Source: Candidatus Bipolaricaulota bacterium
GTDB taxonomy: Bacteria > Bipolaricaulota > Bipolaricaulia > M55B111
Length of the DNA: 64,000 nt
Direction of reading: 5' to 3'
Assembly: GCA_021735245.1 (NCBI GenBank)
Contig: JAIPHJ010000005.1
Location: 1 to 64,000, forward strand
Of this stretch, positions 24,869 to 64,000 are shown one piece after another. A model generated the notes under the pieces. That model did not search any database, was not told the DNA's origin, and saw only the letters and a list, made by a program, of their open reading frames with translations. Made by a program: the position numbers and the translations under genes. Position 1 is the stretch's first letter, and the number at the start of each line of letters is the position of its first letter.

Positions 24869-25028
24869 ACCTTAGTTGCACGGTCGACGATGAATTGATT
24901 AGCATTAACCTGTTTTGCCGTTCCCCACTTAATGTCCTGGGATCTCTGAGAACTTTATGGTCCGGAGCGTAAGAAATACCTCCGGACTACCAAGACCTAG
25001 ACCTGCTCTAATGGAGAGTCAATTGAGT

Positions 25029-27335
25029 ATGTTCAGACGTAAAAAATGGGTTGCGCTTGTAGTTTTATTTGTTCTCTTCTCCACCGTTATCGTTTCTCCC
25101 TTTGGTTATTCCGGGGAACAATATTCTCGTTCCGAAGGAGTGGATCCGTTACTGGGTTACCTGATTGAACGGGACCGGCAGTTAAAACGGAAGGGTAAGG
25201 AAGGAGTCGATCTCAGCGCGTTTTCGGGGTCCCTGGAGGTCTACCGTGGAGAGAGCACTTCAGGTAGATCGGTCGGGGTTGAAGGATCGAAAAGAGGGGA
25301 GGTCCCGAGAAAGACGGTCGGGCTGGACTACCGCCGCGAGGATAAACTGGGAATATTGGTCAAGTTTCGAGAACCCACGTCTTTCGTAAATAAGCCCGGT
25401 TTAACCTTGATTTCGCGAACTGGAACCATTGCCACCGGACTGGGGGATCTGGAGGCGATTTCGGCTCTGGCAGAGAACCCGGAAGTGAAGTACGTAGCTC
25501 CGTCCAAGCCGGTAAGGCCTCTGCTCGACGAGAGCTTACCCCTGGTCGGGGCCGACACTTTACACTCTACGCAGCCGGTAAATAGAGGTGACGGCCTTCT
25601 TATCGGAGTGGTTGATACAGGAATCGATTACGACCATCTCGATTTCAGGGTTGATCGAGAGGAATCAGTGGCCGGGGAAGAGACCTCGAGGATTACGTTT
25701 ATCTGGGACCAGACTGACGGTTTTTCCAGTTCACCTGCCGGTTATGCCTATGGATCCGAATACGACAACAACGACATCGAAGAAGATATAAGAGACGCTG
25801 AGGGTCCGTCTTCGGGTAACGTTCGCGAAAAGGACGTAGTTGGACACGGAACGCACGTGACGGGTATAGCTGCCGGCGATGGTTCTTCGTCGAGCACCGG
25901 ATACGTCGGTATGGCACCCGCCGCGTCCATAGTTGCGGTGAAGACCAACTTTTCCACCAGTTCGATAATCGACGGGGTAAGCTATATTGCCGAGAGGGCT
26001 GATGATCTCGGGAAGGCGGGGGTAGTTACAAGTCTATCCCTGGGTACGCAGTTCGGCCCTCACGACGGTACGTCTCTGTTCGAATCCGCTCTAAACGATT
26101 TAGCCACGAAAGATCACTTGATCGCGGTTTCGGCCGGGAATTCGGGGAATAAGAAAATCCATCACGGCCACGATGTAGCTCGTGGTGAAGAGTTAACCTT
26201 CGAGGTCTCCCTCCCCGGCTACTCTCCCCGAGGGGACGCCGCCGACTATTTCACGCTTGACGGTTTCTACGATCCGCTGGGAAACCTGTCCGTTCAGGTC
26301 CGGGGTCCGAACGGTGACGTTACTGATCCAATAAGCAGCGGCGAGGCGGCCTCTTTCGATCTTGCAGGGGGGTCGGTCCTGATCTCCAACGGCTCGTCCG
26401 ATTTGAACGGAGACAATGAGATATACGTCAGGGTGGGCGATCTGGACGGGAACAGTCCCCCCGATCCCGGCGATTGGGATATCTGGGTGACGGGGATATC
26501 CGGGGCGAGGCTGGATATCTGGGTTGCGGACAATCTGCTTGGCGGTGAAAACCGAAACCTCGAATTTTCCAACGGGGACACGAAGATGACCATCGCCGAG
26601 CCCGGAAACGCGGAAGATCTGGTAACCGTAGGTTCGTTTAACAGCAGAAACAGCTGGGGAAATTATTCGATCGGGGGATTCCCGATAGGAGAACTATCGT
26701 CCTTCAGCAGCACCGGACCAACCAGGGACGGCAGGATCAAGCCCGACCTGGTCGCTCCCGGAGCCTGGGTCGTTTCCACGCTTGCCGAATCCGCGTCCGT
26801 CCAGGACTACCTCAAAGTTCCCGACGGGAAACACTGGGCGCTAGCCGGTACGAGTATGTCAGCTCCCCACGTGGCAGGAGCCGCTGCTCTGATCTGGCGT
26901 GCCTCTTCCGAACTAACGGCGTCGGAGGTTTCCGAATTATTAATTAAAACGACGAATGACTCGGGTTATTTAACTCCCGGCGATAGCTGGGGCTGGGGAA
27001 AGCTGGACGCCAAAGCGGGAGTATACGGTTCCGGGATGCCGGTCGGGGATATTGAGGAGGAGCTTTGGGTCCGGGCGACCCCCAATCCCGCCGGGGATCA
27101 CGTTGATTTCTTCTTTAGCCATCCGGATAATCCCGATGAATTGAAAATTCAGGTCTATAACGTTCTGGGTAAGCTGGTTAAGACTATAGAAGGAGAACAA
27201 TTGACCGGGAAGCTAAAGTACAGGTGGGACTTGAAGGATGACAGAGGAGTTTCTCTGGCGAACGGGCTGTACATCTACCTGATCAGAACCGGTAGTTCCA
27301 GGTCGGATTTAAGTCGTCTCGTGATAAGGAGATGA
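25029..27335 (+). CDS. Secreted S8 (subtilisin-like) peptidase with C-terminal FlgD/T9SS-type sorting-like domain
   Basis: Triad blocks GVVDTGIDYDHLDF, GHGTHVTGIAAG, GTSMSAPHVAGAAAL; C-terminal ATPNPAGDHVDFFFS...YNVLGKLVKTI...WDLKDDRGVSLANGLYIYLIRTG; ORF track start 24957. Confidence 0.93.
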   Translation: MFRRKKWVALVVLFVLFSTVIVSPFGYSGEQYSRSEGVDPLLGYLIERDRQLKRKGKEGVDLSAFSGSLEVYRGESTSGRSVGVEGSKRGEVPRKTVGLDYRREDKLGILVKFREPTSFVNKPGLTLISRTGTIATGLGDLEAISALAENPEVKYVAPSKPVRPLLDESLPLVGADTLHSTQPVNRGDGLLIGVVDTGIDYDHLDFRVDREESVAGEETSRITFIWDQTDGFSSSPAGYAYGSEYDNNDIEEDIRDAEGPSSGNVREKDVVGHGTHVTGIAAGDGSSSSTGYVGMAPAASIVAVKTNFSTSSIIDGVSYIAERADDLGKAGVVTSLSLGTQFGPHDGTSLFESALNDLATKDHLIAVSAGNSGNKKIHHGHDVARGEELTFEVSLPGYSPRGDAADYFTLDGFYDPLGNLSVQVRGPNGDVTDPISSGEAASFDLAGGSVLISNGSSDLNGDNEIYVRVGDLDGNSPPDPGDWDIWVTGISGARLDIWVADNLLGGENRNLEFSNGDTKMTIAEPGNAEDLVTVGSFNSRNSWGNYSIGGFPIGELSSFSSTGPTRDGRIKPDLVAPGAWVVSTLAESASVQDYLKVPDGKHWALAGTSMSAPHVAGAAALIWRASSELTASEVSELLIKTTNDSGYLTPGDSWGWGKLDAKAGVYGSGMPVGDIEEELWVRATPNPAGDHVDFFFSHPDNPDELKIQVYNVLGKLVKTIEGEQLTGKLKYRWDLKDDRGVSLANGLYIYLIRTGSSRSDLSRLVIRR

Positions 27336-28279
27336 ACGGGAGAGGAGGAATGGAGATGAAACCGAAAAATTGGCCGCTACTGGTTACCTTTTTACTGGTA
27401 ATAATCCCACTGATGGCCGGTACCGCCAGCGGTCAGGACGAGTATAGCAATCCCGGTGTGCTGTTGGACCTTGGGCAGGGAGCGAGACCGATGGGAATGG
27501 GGGGAGCCTTTATCGGTCTGGCCGACGACGAAAACGCGGTTTACTATAACCCCGCGGCTCTTGGTTTTCTCGATGAATTAGGGGTTACTACCCTCTGGAG
27601 TCCTCAGTTTGGTTTACTGGATTACGGGGGAGTCGGGTTTGCCCGAAAGTACGTCGGTCTGAGTACTTCCGCTCTTTATTCGGGATCGATAGCCGTGCCG
27701 AACGAGTTCGGCGTCGAAACGGGGACCAGTTTTAGCTACTTGAGTGGGAGCGGCGTTCTCGGGTTTGGTTTTCCGGTACTTTCACAGCTGTCCCTGGGGG
27801 GGAAAGCCAGATATTACTACTCCCATCTTACCCTTGATTCCTCGGACGACGGTTATGGTTGGTCGGTTGATCCGGCAATTATAGCGAAAGTGGGAAACTT
27901 CGGACTTGGGATCGTAGTTGAAAACGCCCTTACCGGGGGTCTCGTTTACGGTTCGAGTCACAGGGAGGAGCTGGAAAAGAAATTGCGAGCCGGTATCTCT
28001 TTCAGTTCCAGGATCTATAGAAGGATGAAATTGAACGTTCTTGCCGATCTGGAAGCCCCGCTCGATTCCGTAGCGGAGGCCAATTACGAACTGATGACGC
28101 CACATCTGGGGATCGAACTATGGCTAGCGAGCGTCGGTGTGAGAGCAGGTTATAGCGGGAGGGCCCTGACGGTGGGGTCCAGTCTGAAGATAACGAATCT
28201 GAGACTTGACTGGGCACTTTCCGCTTACCAGTCGGGTATAACAGAGACTCACAGGGTCTCTTTAATTTACAGGTTTTAA
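27332..28279 (+). CDS. PorV/PorQ-family outer-membrane protein
   Basis: LDLGQGARPMGMGGAFIGLADDENAVYYNPAALGFL; beta-barrel-like remainder ending in aromatic residue (RVSLIYRF). Confidence 0.8.
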   Translation: MNGRGGMEMKPKNWPLLVTFLLVIIPLMAGTASGQDEYSNPGVLLDLGQGARPMGMGGAFIGLADDENAVYYNPAALGFLDELGVTTLWSPQFGLLDYGGVGFARKYVGLSTSALYSGSIAVPNEFGVETGTSFSYLSGSGVLGFGFPVLSQLSLGGKARYYYSHLTLDSSDDGYGWSVDPAIIAKVGNFGLGIVVENALTGGLVYGSSHREELEKKLRAGISFSSRIYRRMKLNVLADLEAPLDSVAEANYELMTPHLGIELWLASVGVRAGYSGRALTVGSSLKITNLRLDWALSAYQSGITETHRVSLIYRF

Positions 28280-28296
28280 CCCATGGCGGATTATTT

Positions 28297-31200
28297 GTGA
28301 AACGGTATAGTCGATCCAGCCGGATAGTTCTGGTTTTACTGGTAGGTCTTTTTATTTTACTCGCGCTATCACTTCAGTCCGTGGCGCTGACGGTTCAGAC
28401 AGGGTCGTTCAGGATTGATTTACAGGGAAAAAAGACCTGGACCGTAAAGCTTGGCTTTGGCGACGGAAAGAGCCTCTCCCGGGTTGGTTACCCGAAAGAC
28501 TCCTACTCGCTGGCCCAGACGTTAAAAGTTAATACGACAGGTCAGCTGGGGAAGTATTTTTCGTTAAGCGCGAACCTGGACGACACCAAGCCCGGCTACC
28601 TCCAGAAATTCGAGTTAAAGATGGACACCGACAACTGGGACGGTCGGCTGGGTGATTTGAGCACCGGGGAGGACAATTTTACCGTCTACAACAAGAAGCT
28701 ACTCGGGCTCGAGTTAACCGGAAAACTCGGCGAATCCGAACTTAGCGCCGTTGCAGGACGCCTTCAGGGTATCTCGGAGACCAAAGTATTTTACGGAAAT
28801 ACCGGAGAGTCCGAGGTAGAATATTCGCTCTACAGGAGCGAGGCCAGGCTGGAGGAATCGGGTTATACGAATAATATCCGGGGCCTGCAGTATTACAAAC
28901 TGGCGATAGACTACGTGGAAGGTTTTACCGACCCGGAACTGGGGTTCCAGGCTGACGACGACCTGTGGAATTTTCTTGACCAGTGGGAGTTCGGCTGTCT
29001 GAAAGGGGAAATTGAGGCAAAGCCGTCCAGTGAACTCTCTTCCGGCCAGTTCGACGTAGTGTCGAGGGAAATTGACTATTTAATACTCCTCGAAGACTGG
29101 CGCAGTTTGATTCGAAAACGGATCAAAAGCTATATAACGCGGTACAACCAGGACCTGCCGGAAGAGGAAAAGAAGGAGTACCCGTTTAACCCCGGGACGG
29201 ATTACGAGGAAAATTTTCTCGGGGAACTTAGCAAGTACGTAAATCTTACCCTTGGCGAATCCCAGCTTCAGCTAAACCAGTACAAACAGACCAGGTTTTA
29301 CTACCTTGGTAGGACGGAAATTAAGGAAGAAGGGTTTCAGCTGGAAATTCTCCGGAACGGCGAGTGGGAGAAGGTGAGAGATATTCCGGGCTATGACTTC
29401 AATCTCTATCCCGAGAAGGGCCTTGTCGGCCTGGCGTTTCCCGAGGAGTTTTTTGCGGATTTGGCAAATAAAAGGATTCGCGCCCGGTTTCAATACGAGA
29501 TTTCGGGGAAGATGTACTCCCTGGGGCTCTCCGTGGCCCCGAACAGCGAGAGGGTATATTTGAATGGTAACCTGCTGAAGCGAAACACGGATTACTCGAT
29601 CGATTACGAAACCGGCTCGCTGCTGATTTTCAAGGACGTCGGGGCCGATGACAAGCTCAAGGTCGACTTCGAGCGGGCCCGGGGTGGGCTTGGAGGTTTT
29701 GCCCAGTTTGCCCGCACCATGTACGGATTTAGCACGAGGATGAAGTCGGATTACGGGCTGGTAATGGACGTCAGTCTGTTTCAGGCGCGGGATAACGCTT
29801 CCGAAGAATTGCCGCCGGAAATACCGACCATGCCCAACCTTCACACCGTTGGTGGGGTTAGCGCCCGGTACGAAGAAAACGGATGGACCGCTTCCGTAAA
29901 GTTTGCCGGAAACGTGAATAGGTTCCCCTCCGACGATAATTCGCGGGTCAATCTACCTAACCGGATAGTAGAGATACTTTCACTGACAGAAGCCGGGTAC
30001 GAGAAGACCCTCTTTGCCCACAAGAACGGATTTACGATTAAGGGTCCGGAGGGCTGGGAAAGTTACGGGCCGGAAGACGGCCTTGCCGGTAATAACGTGA
30101 ACGACGGGTTGATCGTGGGGAACCAGCTTTTCCTGGGCACGAACGCGGGCCTGACGAAGGTCGAACTAACGGGACCCGCCCCGTTAGCAAGGGCGCCAAA
30201 CTGGGAAAGCTATTACGAAACCGATGGACTTCCGAAAGGGGAAGTCGTCGGTCTGGCCAGCGACGGGGATAGAGTCTGGGCGGCTAGCCAAACGAATATT
30301 TCCGAAACCACAATTACCGCTCTTGCCGAAGACGGGGGCTGGGATGAAGTTCCTTCCGAATTTGATAAAGATTTTTCGTTGTTATCGATAGCCTACGTTG
30401 ATGGTCACCTATGGCTGGGTACGGATCAGGGATTGTACCTCTATGATATCTCCCGGGGCGAACTTACCGGGACGGAGCCAGCAGTAGCCGGAAGGGTTAA
30501 CGATATGGAAGTCGTCGAAAAGGACCTGTACGTCGCTACGCCGGATGGAATTACGAAGATTGGGCTGGGCAAGGATAAAGAGGAACTGGTAAAGGATCGA
30601 TCGGTGAAGGGTCTTTCGGTCGAGGGTGGAGAAGTATGGTTTGGGACCGATCGGGGTTTTGCGAAAGTTGGCTCTCCCGTTCGTTACGGGAGGAAATCAG
30701 TTACTGCCATACTGGCAACCGGTTCTAAGGTTCGGGCGGGAAGTAAAGGGTATCGTTCGGATGAGACGAGCGAGATCGTGGTTTACGAGTTGGAAAACGG
30801 CCTGGAGAAGTTCTATACCGATCAAACGAAAATAAAAGGAATTGACGACGATCAGTTCAGGAGTATCGACCCGGAGGCCCACACGGATAAAGGAGTGTAT
30901 CTCGCAGCAGAAGTAGGAAAGACGCTGGATTTATGGTCTCGAAACCTTTCTCTTTCAACGAATTTCGAGTACGTTCAGCCGAGTTATACTCCCATCGGGA
31001 AACTGGAAAGGCGAGACGTTATAGCCACCGGGATGAGTCTGGACGCAAACGTTACCGAGTCCTTTTCTCTCGGGTTCAGCAGCGATTATTCGATCTCTTC
31101 TTTTTCCACGGAAGACGGGAGCTGGTCGTTATCCAATCAGCTGTCAGTCGACTGGCAGACGGTGGTCGATACCACCGCGGCTGCTACCTGGACTACGAAG

Positions 31201-32232
31201 GAGGGCGGGATAACCGTACTTGGGCTGGATCTCGGCCTGGCAAAGAAATTCATGGGGGAAACCCTGACCGCGGCCCTGGACTTCTCGACGGCTCGGGAAA
31301 TCAAATCCTCCGGGAGCCCCGGTAATTACGCCAGTGTTTCGGCCAGTCTTGGTTTTACTCCGGGCGAGTCTACTGCTCTGAGCTTAAATTACTCTTACCC
31401 GTTCACCTTTGGTCCTCTGGAAGGCAGAGCGGACGAAAAACTCGGATGGGAACTGGATTATTCCCGGGATGTGCCATTTAGCGACGACTATGGAGGTAAG
31501 CTAAAACTCAGTGGAAAAGGTAACGCGCAGGACCTGGTGGGCGGAGGCTACCGGAGGTTTAAGAACCAATCCGAGGTAAGGATGGACTTCGATCAGGTGA
31601 GCCTGGGTCGACTTGGTCTTACTCCTTATATTTCTCTGTCCTGGAAGGGCAGCAATTCCTCCCACGAAATAACGGGCGAGATTTCCGGGAGGACCACAGT
31701 TTTAAGTTTTTCCAGCCGAACTACGCTGAGTCGAACCGTGGGATTCTCTCCGGGCAGTAATCTGGTAGAGTACAAGGATCAACTTCGGGGAAAGGTCAGC
31801 TACGAAACCGATAGAGTAACTCCCGAGGTGAGCTATTCGATAAGTCGAAATCTATTAACTCACCCGAATTTCGGTCGCAGGTCCGAGTATAGTGGAGACC
31901 TTACCCTGGGGGCGAAGTGGAGACCGTTAAGTAACGTTTCTCACGAGTTGAGAGGTGGGGTTAAATACAGATCCGAAAAGGGGTTCACCTATAACCTGAA
32001 AGACGTTCTCAACTGGAAGTTGACGTCCAAATTAACTCCGGAAGTGGCCGTGGATCTAAAGTTCCTCCCGGGGACGGACGAGTGGGACTTCTCGGTAGAA
32101 TCCGGGTTCTCTTATCCCATAAGAGAACTATGGGGAATATCGTTTACCTCCGGGTTTAACTGGGGAATAGAAGAAACCGGTGATACTTACAACAGCTTCT
32201 ACGGTTCGGCCGGGTTGCAGGTGAAGTTTTAG
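28297..32232 (+). CDS. Large SprA-like outer-membrane beta-barrel protein with inserted beta-propeller repeats
   Basis: Signal peptide; SERVYLNGNLLKRNTDYSIDYETGSLLIFKDVGADDKLKVDFERARG motif; propeller-like repeats near residues 580-830 (LFLGTNAGLTKV, LWLGTDQGLYLYD, VWFGTDRGFAKV); alternating-polarity C-terminal strands. Confidence 0.7.
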   Translation: MKRYSRSSRIVLVLLVGLFILLALSLQSVALTVQTGSFRIDLQGKKTWTVKLGFGDGKSLSRVGYPKDSYSLAQTLKVNTTGQLGKYFSLSANLDDTKPGYLQKFELKMDTDNWDGRLGDLSTGEDNFTVYNKKLLGLELTGKLGESELSAVAGRLQGISETKVFYGNTGESEVEYSLYRSEARLEESGYTNNIRGLQYYKLAIDYVEGFTDPELGFQADDDLWNFLDQWEFGCLKGEIEAKPSSELSSGQFDVVSREIDYLILLEDWRSLIRKRIKSYITRYNQDLPEEEKKEYPFNPGTDYEENFLGELSKYVNLTLGESQLQLNQYKQTRFYYLGRTEIKEEGFQLEILRNGEWEKVRDIPGYDFNLYPEKGLVGLAFPEEFFADLANKRIRARFQYEISGKMYSLGLSVAPNSERVYLNGNLLKRNTDYSIDYETGSLLIFKDVGADDKLKVDFERARGGLGGFAQFARTMYGFSTRMKSDYGLVMDVSLFQARDNASEELPPEIPTMPNLHTVGGVSARYEENGWTASVKFAGNVNRFPSDDNSRVNLPNRIVEILSLTEAGYEKTLFAHKNGFTIKGPEGWESYGPEDGLAGNNVNDGLIVGNQLFLGTNAGLTKVELTGPAPLARAPNWESYYETDGLPKGEVVGLASDGDRVWAASQTNISETTITALAEDGGWDEVPSEFDKDFSLLSIAYVDGHLWLGTDQGLYLYDISRGELTGTEPAVAGRVNDMEVVEKDLYVATPDGITKIGLGKDKEELVKDRSVKGLSVEGGEVWFGTDRGFAKVGSPVRYGRKSVTAILATGSKVRAGSKGYRSDETSEIVVYELENGLEKFYTDQTKIKGIDDDQFRSIDPEAHTDKGVYLAAEVGKTLDLWSRNLSLSTNFEYVQPSYTPIGKLERRDVIATGMSLDANVTESFSLGFSSDYSISSFSTEDGSWSLSNQLSVDWQTVVDTTAAATWTTKEGGITVLGLDLGLAKKFMGETLTAALDFSTAREIKSSGSPGNYASVSASLGFTPGESTALSLNYSYPFTFGPLEGRADEKLGWELDYSRDVPFSDDYGGKLKLSGKGNAQDLVGGGYRRFKNQSEVRMDFDQVSLGRLGLTPYISLSWKGSNSSHEITGEISGRTTVLSFSSRTTLSRTVGFSPGSNLVEYKDQLRGKVSYETDRVTPEVSYSISRNLLTHPNFGRRSEYSGDLTLGAKWRPLSNVSHELRGGVKYRSEKGFTYNLKDVLNWKLTSKLTPEVAVDLKFLPGTDEWDFSVESGFSYPIRELWGISFTSGFNWGIEETGDTYNSFYGSAGLQVKF

Positions 32233-61786: not shown

Positions 61787-64000
61787 TTAAAAATCTACGA
61801 GCTCCACGTCGAACCAAAACCCCGATTTACTTCCCGTAATTCCGACCTTTAGACAGTTCTGCAGTGTGTTGTGGAGAGAATAGGAAAGACTCGATAGATT
61901 CCCCGCCTGAACGTCGTACTCCCCGGTTAAGCTGAGCGACCAGGTGTCGAGAAACTCCAGCTGGAGTTCTCCGGACACCTTCTTCAGCCAGGTCTCGAAG
62001 GGAGTGCTCTTTAGTTTAATTCCCCCGGATGTTCCCTCTGAGGAGAATTTTAACCCAAAGGTCGTCCCCGAGATCGATCCTCCATCGACGTCGTAGCCGG
62101 AAGATAGGTTCAGCTTGATTTTCCCCCGGGAATAAGTGGACTCAGTCTTTATCGACGACAGGGATGCTTCCAAAATATCGTAGCTCACCGTGAACTTCTG
62201 ATCGAGCGAATATCTACTGAAGCCGATACTGTATTTGGCGTTCGAAAACCCGTCGGCGGGCACGAAGTCGTAGTGGAAGGACAGGCTCTGGTTGATATCC
62301 CCCGTACTGCTGTACTTCAAACTTAGCCGATCTTGACTCTTTATCGAGTCGAATTCGAACGGTGACTCTCCGAACCCCTCCCTATGGACGAACTGGAGGT
62401 TCAAAGTTCCGGGCCCTTCGATCTTCAGCTCCGGTTCCAGATTCGTCCAGGCTCGCGCAGTTACCTCTTCTCCCCGCCCGAGGTAGTAAGGATTGAGCCA
62501 GCCCTCTCCTTTGAGCGAAGGATTAAAAGGGCCCATCGCGGGAGCTTTAACCCGGAAATTTCCGCCTATCTCCCCCCTTCCTCCGGAGCGAACTCTGGAC
62601 CAGTCGCGCTTAATCTCTCGATAGTAACCCAGACGTGTTCTTAATCCGTAACTCAAGGGAAAGTCCTGGAGGGACCGCTCCCGAGATAGCGAAATTTCCG
62701 GGAGTCTTTCGATCGCGTGATCCGTTTTCTCTTCGTCATCGGACTTTTCAGTCCGGGAAACGAGCGCCTTCCAGTTCAGGCCGTAATCTTGCCCGTCCAG
62801 GCTAAGGCTCCACTCGTTGTGGTCGTAATTCGACCCTCTAAATTCTCCCTGCTCGACGGTTATGTCAGTGCTTATCTCGATCCAGTCCGCCGGATTCAGG
62901 TCGAAGGCTCCATCCAGTTTGTAGAAATTGTCGCCGAAGGCTCTGTAGATTCCGTAAATTTCCCCTACTCCCGCTACCGTATTTCCACCCGAGTAATAAT
63001 CCAGACCGAGTCCCAGACCCTGGTGGCGGGAAAAATAGTCCATAACGACGTTGCCGAAGTGGTTTTTGTCGTGAAAAACGGGAAATGCTCCGCTAACGGA
63101 TAACCCGTCTTCCGAGGAGTAGCCGATCTCGGGAAAGTACGGGCGTTTAGGAAGACCCACGTCTTTTAGCGTTAGGAAGTAGAGCGGGGACCAGCCCACC
63201 GGGACCCCGAAGGACTTCAGCCTCGCGGACCTTGCTAGGACGAAGTCCCCCTCGATCAGGGATGTCCGATCAGCTGAAATGGAGTAAGCGCAGCCGCCAT
63301 CGCATCTACACCCTTCGCAGGTGCTGAACGAGCTGCTCTCGAAGTCAGCCCGGCTCAAACCGGAAGGACTATCGAACTCAAAAGCGGCGGACTTCCCGAG
63401 CATCTGAACTTTTCTCTGTTCACCCTTGCTGCCCTCCAGGACTATCTGGCCTGAGATCCCTTCGGCGGTAAGGTCCGATATCTTTACAGCGTCTTTGGGG
63501 TCGGTTGACAGGGTTCCCGATATTCTATCGGCTCGCAAGTTCGTGGTTTTTCTTGTTAGTTCAGCATTTTCGGATAGTTCAAACTTCCAGGCGTCTTCGA
63601 TCTTCTTGATGGAAGCTTTGTCTCCCGAAAGGTAAGAGTTTTCTCCGAGAGTAACCCTCATGGCTCCCTCCGCCGATAGCTCCTGCGTGCCATCCTCTCC
63701 TTTCAGCTCCAGGTAGTCGGAGGTCAAGGACCAATCGGGTCGGGATAACCGAACGTTCCCTTCGGCGGTGGCCCTTCGAGAAGCTGAATCGCTGTCCTGA
63801 CCGGGGCTTGCCGTTCCCGTAATCTTATCGGCCCGGAGCGTCGTGGGCCCGCTTTCGTATTTCGGATTTCCGGTTACTTCGAAGTCCCAGCCTGCTTCGA
63901 CTTTCTTTGCCCGGATTTCGCCCCCCGCGAGGGACGAGTTCCCGGCGAGAGAGAGTTCGGCCCCCGGCGCGATCCTCAGGGAATCCAGCTTGGCTCCCTC
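61787..64000 (-). CDS. LptD/OstA-like outer-membrane protein, 5' end beyond the window (partial)
   Basis: Frame open from 63727 to 64000 (EGAKLDSLRIAPGAELSLAGNSSLAGGEIRAKKVEAGWDFEVTGNPKYESGPTTLRADKITGTAS...); RLKSFGVPVGWSPLYFLTLKDVGLPKRPYFPEIGYSSEDGLSVSGAFPVF; beta-strand-rich C-terminus. Confidence 0.8.
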   Translation of the reverse strand, partial: EGAKLDSLRIAPGAELSLAGNSSLAGGEIRAKKVEAGWDFEVTGNPKYESGPTTLRADKITGTASPGQDSDSASRRATAEGNVRLSRPDWSLTSDYLELKGEDGTQELSAEGAMRVTLGENSYLSGDKASIKKIEDAWKFELSENAELTRKTTNLRADRISGTLSTDPKDAVKISDLTAEGISGQIVLEGSKGEQRKVQMLGKSAAFEFDSPSGLSRADFESSSFSTCEGCRCDGGCAYSISADRTSLIEGDFVLARSARLKSFGVPVGWSPLYFLTLKDVGLPKRPYFPEIGYSSEDGLSVSGAFPVFHDKNHFGNVVMDYFSRHQGLGLGLDYYSGGNTVAGVGEIYGIYRAFGDNFYKLDGAFDLNPADWIEISTDITVEQGEFRGSNYDHNEWSLSLDGQDYGLNWKALVSRTEKSDDEEKTDHAIERLPEISLSRERSLQDFPLSYGLRTRLGYYREIKRDWSRVRSGGRGEIGGNFRVKAPAMGPFNPSLKGEGWLNPYYLGRGEEVTARAWTNLEPELKIEGPGTLNLQFVHREGFGESPFEFDSIKSQDRLSLKYSSTGDINQSLSFHYDFVPADGFSNAKYSIGFSRYSLDQKFTVSYDILEASLSSIKTESTYSRGKIKLNLSSGYDVDGGSISGTTFGLKFSSEGTSGGIKLKSTPFETWLKKVSGELQLEFLDTWSLSLTGEYDVQAGNLSSLSYSLHNTLQNCLKVGITGSKSGFWFDVELVDF

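Follow-up and report, generated by a model that had tools for sequence, protein, structure and literature searches.

The question raised by this locus is whether three adjacent genes of a Candidatus Bipolaricaulota bacterium, coding for an S8 (subtilase) protease, a PorV-like barrel and a giant SprA-like barrel, belong to a protein exporter related to type IX secretion. That pathway has been placed in Bacteroidota, possibly in other phyla of the Fibrobacterota–Chlorobiota–Bacteroidota (FCB) group, and in none elsewhere (PMC4793230, PMC7463736, PMC11285876); Bipolaricaulota are outside the FCB group, among the candidate phyla in the NCBI listing. All three genes lie on the plus strand of the window, by which we mean the whole analysed stretch of 64,000 nucleotides (contig JAIPHJ010000005.1). 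The nearest relatives that bear a name are Candidatus Bipolaricaulota of Great Salt Lake. The co-oriented trio described in the first-pass annotation is borne out by the coordinates of the open reading frames (ORFs): the protease ORF and the PorV-like gene overlap by 4 bp and a 17-bp gap precedes the SprA-like gene. The same order, cargo with a C-terminal export domain (CTD), PorV-like and SprA-like, recurs across Bipolaricaulota, and SprA and PorV are the top PDB matches for the two barrels, so the cluster is more than a chance arrangement. We consider it probable that these genes encode the central parts of an outer-membrane exporter of type 9 style which does without the rotary motor and PorU sortase of Bacteroidota.

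The 1311-aa protein, earlier proposed as SprA-like, is assigned to SprA both by the profile check and by the predicted fold of a homologue. Its N-terminal profile (aa 37-556) found Flavobacterium johnsoniae SprA (6h3i/6h3j) in the PDB with E 1.3e-8, over two collinear segments corresponding to SprA 147-281 and 695-785, and the full profile found it with E 1.6e-5. The structure was taken from homologue L037, modelled by AlphaFold2 (AF2) over 1200 residues with the last 32 omitted (pLDDT 87.9, pTM 0.69). The top four Foldseek matches of this model were the SprA structures 8gl8, 8gl6, 6h3i and 6h3j (E 2.7e-19 to 4.1e-12; TM 0.41-0.48 by query length), while LptD and SlpA were resembled more weakly. 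Chance resemblance between barrels is ruled out by these sequence and fold rankings. Judged by its sequence, the protein is a divergent SprA relative falling below the TIGR04189 equivalog cut-off, and homology and fold together give the locus a predicted translocon of the SprA/Sov kind. Such a protein occurs in 89 of 100 Bipolaricaulota genomes, including 37 of 38 good ones, usually in one copy.

The idea that half the length means half a barrel was dropped, as roughly 36 barrel-type strands were counted from the DSSP string of the L037 model; the SprA barrel has 36 (PMC10994853). VIA-align of the same model was discarded as barrel evidence, its match list being filled by propellers and silent on the barrel. 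The propeller in question is seven-bladed and sits between barrel parts, at model residues 514-785. Its profile leads to sensor propellers and, weakly, to PorZ (5m11, E 0.0017), and no such insert was found in the SprA relatives of 20 inspected non-Bipolaricaulota loci. By analogy, it may do part of the job of PorZ. One of the 20 loci has a gene for a separate PorZ-like protein, composed of a propeller and a CTD (L145:17077-18636), some 3 kb away from its SprA-like gene.

For the second barrel, described in the first-pass annotation as PorV/PorQ-like, the profile check and the predicted fold agree on PorV. Single-sequence phmmer searches against the PDB found neither SprA nor PorV and profiles were needed; the family profile has PorV from the SprA complex as its sole PDB match (E 4.1e-18). 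The AF2 model (pLDDT 93.4) has PorV as its best Foldseek match (8.8e-14), and VIA-align also ranks PorV first, with Z 31.2 vs 27.9 for FadL. An identity as a FadL hydrophobic channel was therefore rejected, PorV coming first by sequence profile, Foldseek and Z. The protein has a signal-like N-terminus and a C-terminal Phe, and by profile and fold it corresponds to the PorV-type carrier barrel of type IX secretion systems. The family is present in 86 of the 100 genomes. The NCBI model NF052325 ('PorV2', putative divergent) is matched by 35 of 46 PorV-like members with E up to 1e-3; since this model already exists, off-type relatives are not wholly new.

The protease carries the active-site motifs DTG, HGTH and GTSM and matches Peptidase_S8 with E 4e-42 (Pfam/NCBIfam). 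The FlgD/T9SS-A-like end ascribed to it earlier was confirmed, with 31.7 bits against TIGR04183 Por_Secre_tail (cut-off 23) and 28.4 bits against FlgD_ig. The best PDB match of the CTD profile is the CTD of PorU (E 4.3e-10); PorZ, the SprA-bound substrate CTDs 8glj/8glk and FlgD, which has the same immunoglobulin (Ig) fold, are matched as well. The domain occurs in 96 of the 100 genomes, in 1-52 copies per genome, and the genome search proposed earlier returned several CTD cargos besides the protease in the organism's own genome. Thus neither of the findings that would have spoken against the original proposal, unrelated barrels and a lack of further cargo, was obtained. Across loci the cargo bears PKD, cohesin, dockerin-like, lamin-tail, FG-GAP and S8 domains, types which from their sequence look extracellular. 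Cohesin and PKD domains are found on CTD cargo of L059, L063 and L068, and L059 also has an FG-GAP protein that weakly matches dockerin, which hints at a surface assembly of cohesin-dockerin type that might be exported by the SprA-like/PorV-like system.

Cargo and carrier genes are closely paired. Of the 60 PorV ORFs at the sampled loci, 56 follow directly on a CTD ORF of the same strand. Among the 43 pairs with a placeable start, 19 carrier starts precede the end of the cargo stop codon, and in ten of these the overlap is 4 bp. Because most of the PorV genes examined come immediately after the gene of their own cargo and often overlap with it, the carriers appear to be dedicated and made in step with the cargo. 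Tree distances of carriers and CTDs correlate with Spearman 0.67, while partner swaps within loci give a mean of 0.42 and only 1 of 999 reaches 0.67. In the organism's own genome, each of the three PorV-like genes adjoins one for a CTD or CTD-like protein, and one additional cargo is present; in near-complete small genomes the counts of CTDs and PorVs are nearly equal (G004, 3 and 3; G005, 4 and 4). Among the four unpaired PorV ORFs, that of L078 is the second fragment of an interrupted ORF, and those of L057 and L074 lie at the end of the sampled stretch or close to it. In the fourth case, at L054:15012-19586 (contig 70.0-74.6 kb), the order is reversed, the PorV-like gene being followed by that of a 1212-aa protein whose end is CTD-like.

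Type IX secretion is powered by a proton-driven motor, whose energy is proposed to eject loaded carriers from the translocon in F. johnsoniae (PMC12635249). Of the Por/Gld motor and PorU components proposed earlier as search targets, GldM, GldN and PorU were not found and GldL gave only sub-threshold matches. In the profile search GldM (PorM) was absent from all 100 Bipolaricaulota genomes and GldN (PorN) from all 41 searched for it. The same models find both proteins of the control genome G302 (4.8e-118 and 9.6e-53, respectively), which makes the GldM negative informative. The GldL (PorL) model, run without a positive control, gave its sub-threshold matches in 7 of 100 genomes; the one in the own genome (L097) was rejected, this protein being a coiled coil of generic type with matches to 63 Pfam families. 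MotA, ExbB and TolQ belong to other proton-motive-force motors of the same general class. Their family was found in only 1 of 100 Bipolaricaulota genomes, with 8 of 14 control genomes positive, and on these sequence grounds most of the phylum may be without Tol, Exb and Mot motors altogether. No C25 (PorU-type) peptidase was detected in the own genome, which is 85% complete, and C25 (gingipain/PorU-type) peptidases occur in 4 of 100 Bipolaricaulota genomes (G024, G070, G072, G089). Because neither motor nor sortase was found, we do not file the exporter as a type IX secretion system. Of the earlier wording, 'reduced or diverged system', divergence holds; reduction fits chiefly the surrounding machine and not necessarily the barrel strands. 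Outside the phylum, about 110 genomes (G100-G385) were found by profile search to hold SprA-like proteins, most of them 1500 to 2400 aa long. Among the 80 searched for GldM, G302 alone gave a match, so it may be common for SprA to occur with no motor that can be detected.

We propose that the exporter acts as the outer-membrane core of type IX systems does, with export predicted from sequence and models to depend on the CTD. Judged from their N-termini, cargo proteins would reach the periplasm by a signal peptide, and the CTD would enter the SprA-like barrel. The PorV-like barrel, docked at the lateral gate, would capture the CTD, and the cargo-carrier complex would exit the gate into the membrane. 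The dedicated carrier, made in step with its cargo, would then stay as a surface anchor, with no recycling by motor or sortase; if the carrier leaves with its cargo, less recycling is needed, which fits the observed pairing. More tentatively, we can envisage a general form of type 9 transport without a rotary motor, in which CTD capture by a dedicated, possibly single-use PorV carrier pulls the cargo through the SprA-like gate and anchors it afterwards. This would apply in Bipolaricaulota and perhaps in other GldM-negative SprA lineages, and the motor and sortase of Bacteroidota would be later additions letting one PorV serve many cargos. We regard this extension as possible but doubtful.

Several points weigh against a motor-free exporter with dedicated carriers. 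Both barrels score below curated cut-offs: the SprA-like protein matches TIGR04189 only at aa 393-493 (2.7e-7; 28 bits vs cut-off 200), a local match which recurs in 44 of 50 relatives, and the PorV-like protein reaches 77 bits against PorV_fam NF033709 (E 2e-21), under the 90-bit cut-off. The motor search consisted of GldM, GldN, GldL and MotA/ExbB/TolQ, with GldK/PorK, SprE/PorW, PorE and SprT outside it, and diverged GldL or GldM could have been missed by profiles. Co-inheritance of carriers and CTDs can be explained by linkage alone. Genome G047 holds 52 CTDs vs 4 PorVs, and genomes with such an excess imply that some cargos have no carrier of their own. That PorV carriers probably remain as anchors of the exported CTD proteins is, moreover, a step which we infer. 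If the motor proteins have diverged as far as the barrels, the locus could belong to a full type IX system whose GldL/M/K/N-like energy chain and sortase are present but too distant for the profiles, and the single weak GldL match in the own genome would fit. The coiled-coil nature of that match, the GldM and GldN negatives set against the strong G302 control, and the lack of the MotA/ExbB/TolQ family in 99 of 100 genomes despite positive controls make us consider such a system rather unlikely.

The FadL-type fold of PorV-like proteins and the weaker likeness of the giant barrel to LptD and SlpA could also suggest a transporter of lipids, glycans or hydrophobic molecules, with the protease a mere neighbour. 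PorV and SprA outrank FadL, LptD and SlpA in both sequence and fold, and neither the frequent CTD-PorV adjacency nor the near-universal presence of CTDs is in keeping with a chance neighbour; we judge this explanation very improbable. Compatible with the motor-free exporter is a role of the S8 protease as a replacement for the PorU sortase, being exported first, held at the surface and trimming or attaching other CTD cargo. Like PorU it has its own CTD. For 25 of the 30 SprA-like ORFs sampled, an S8-type CTD protein is encoded at the same locus, and C25 peptidases are all but missing from the phylum. Five sampled SprA loci have no S8-type CTD cargo nearby, and several such loci carry CTD cargo with other domains instead (e.g. 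cohesin-PKD in L059). Subtilases are besides common secreted enzymes, and the CTD cleavage role is putative, so we think this substitution unlikely.

Positions of the features are collected in the table below. The protease gene is present as annotated before, though position 25029, given as its beginning, is only an in-frame ATG lying 24 codons inside an ORF that opens at 24957; the likely start is 25011 or 25029.

Table. Coordinates of the exporter genes and their parts in the window
Feature	Position	Strand	Basis or remarks
S8 (subtilase) protease ORF	24957..27335	+	Peptidase_S8, signal-like N-terminus, C-terminal T9SS-type CTD
Type A-like CTD of S8 protease, Ig fold export/sorting signal	27057..27332	+	profile matches
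PorV-like carrier barrel, FadL superfamily, ~14 strands	27332..28279	+	profile, AF2 model
SprA/Sov-like protein of 1311 aa, giant barrel and predicted translocon	28297..32232	+	profile and model of homologue
SprA-like gene, segment homologous to SprA 147-281 (approximate)	28474..28866	+	profile positions 28-156
SprA-like gene, segment homologous to SprA ~695-785 / TIGR04189 positions 584-685	29473..29784	+	
SprA-like gene, inserted 7-bladed beta-propeller, two-component-sensor/PorZ type (approximate boundaries)	29962..30900	+	
SprA-like C-terminal barrel region, ~25 strands by analogy with L037 model, terminal Phe	30901..32229	+	

LptD-like, LptF/G, LptB and OstA-like genes stand in a row from about 61790 to 64000 of the window and on to about 67590 of the contig (L054:6788-12588). 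Since LptD, LptF/G and LptB-like genes are on the same contig, an outer membrane is likely; for the related Ran1 genome lipopolysaccharide-associated genes were reported absent (PMC6092417).

With this locus Bipolaricaulota gain a candidate route for placing proteins on the surface, and one that may be a simpler version of the type IX secretion system. A phylum-wide version beyond the FCB group, in which no motor was found, makes the purpose of the motor directly testable, and the origin of the system too. The F. johnsoniae SprA-PorV translocon (6h3i, 8gl6, 8gl8) has in common with it the giant barrel, the PorV-type carrier and the Ig-fold CTD, of which profiles match all three and predicted folds two. 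It differs in length (1311 aa here vs ~2400), in the propeller insert, in the carrier-paired cargo genes, in the organism being outside the FCB group and in that no GldM, GldN or PorU was found here. The SprB-SprF type shares a dedicated FadL-family carrier gene adjoining the cargo gene, and anchoring of type B cargo by cognate PorP-like carriers has been proposed there (PMC9143113). It combines a type B CTD with a PorP-like carrier, while in Bipolaricaulota a type A-like CTD goes with a PorV-like one; a further difference is that in F. johnsoniae a motor drives the system (PMC12635249). The PorZ/PorU attachment complex of Porphyromonas gingivalis has a propeller of the same kind, and the CTDs resemble those of PorU and PorZ; there PorZ is a separate CTD protein, whereas here the propeller is inside the translocon and no C25 sortase was found in the own genome. 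The possible type IX systems of other FCB phyla (PMC11285876) and the 'PorV2' family are likewise divergent PorV/CTD systems outside Bacteroidota. According to the former source type IX genes are absent outside the FCB group, and Bipolaricaulota, with a SprA-like translocon, a PorV-like carrier and CTD cargo, are such a phylum.

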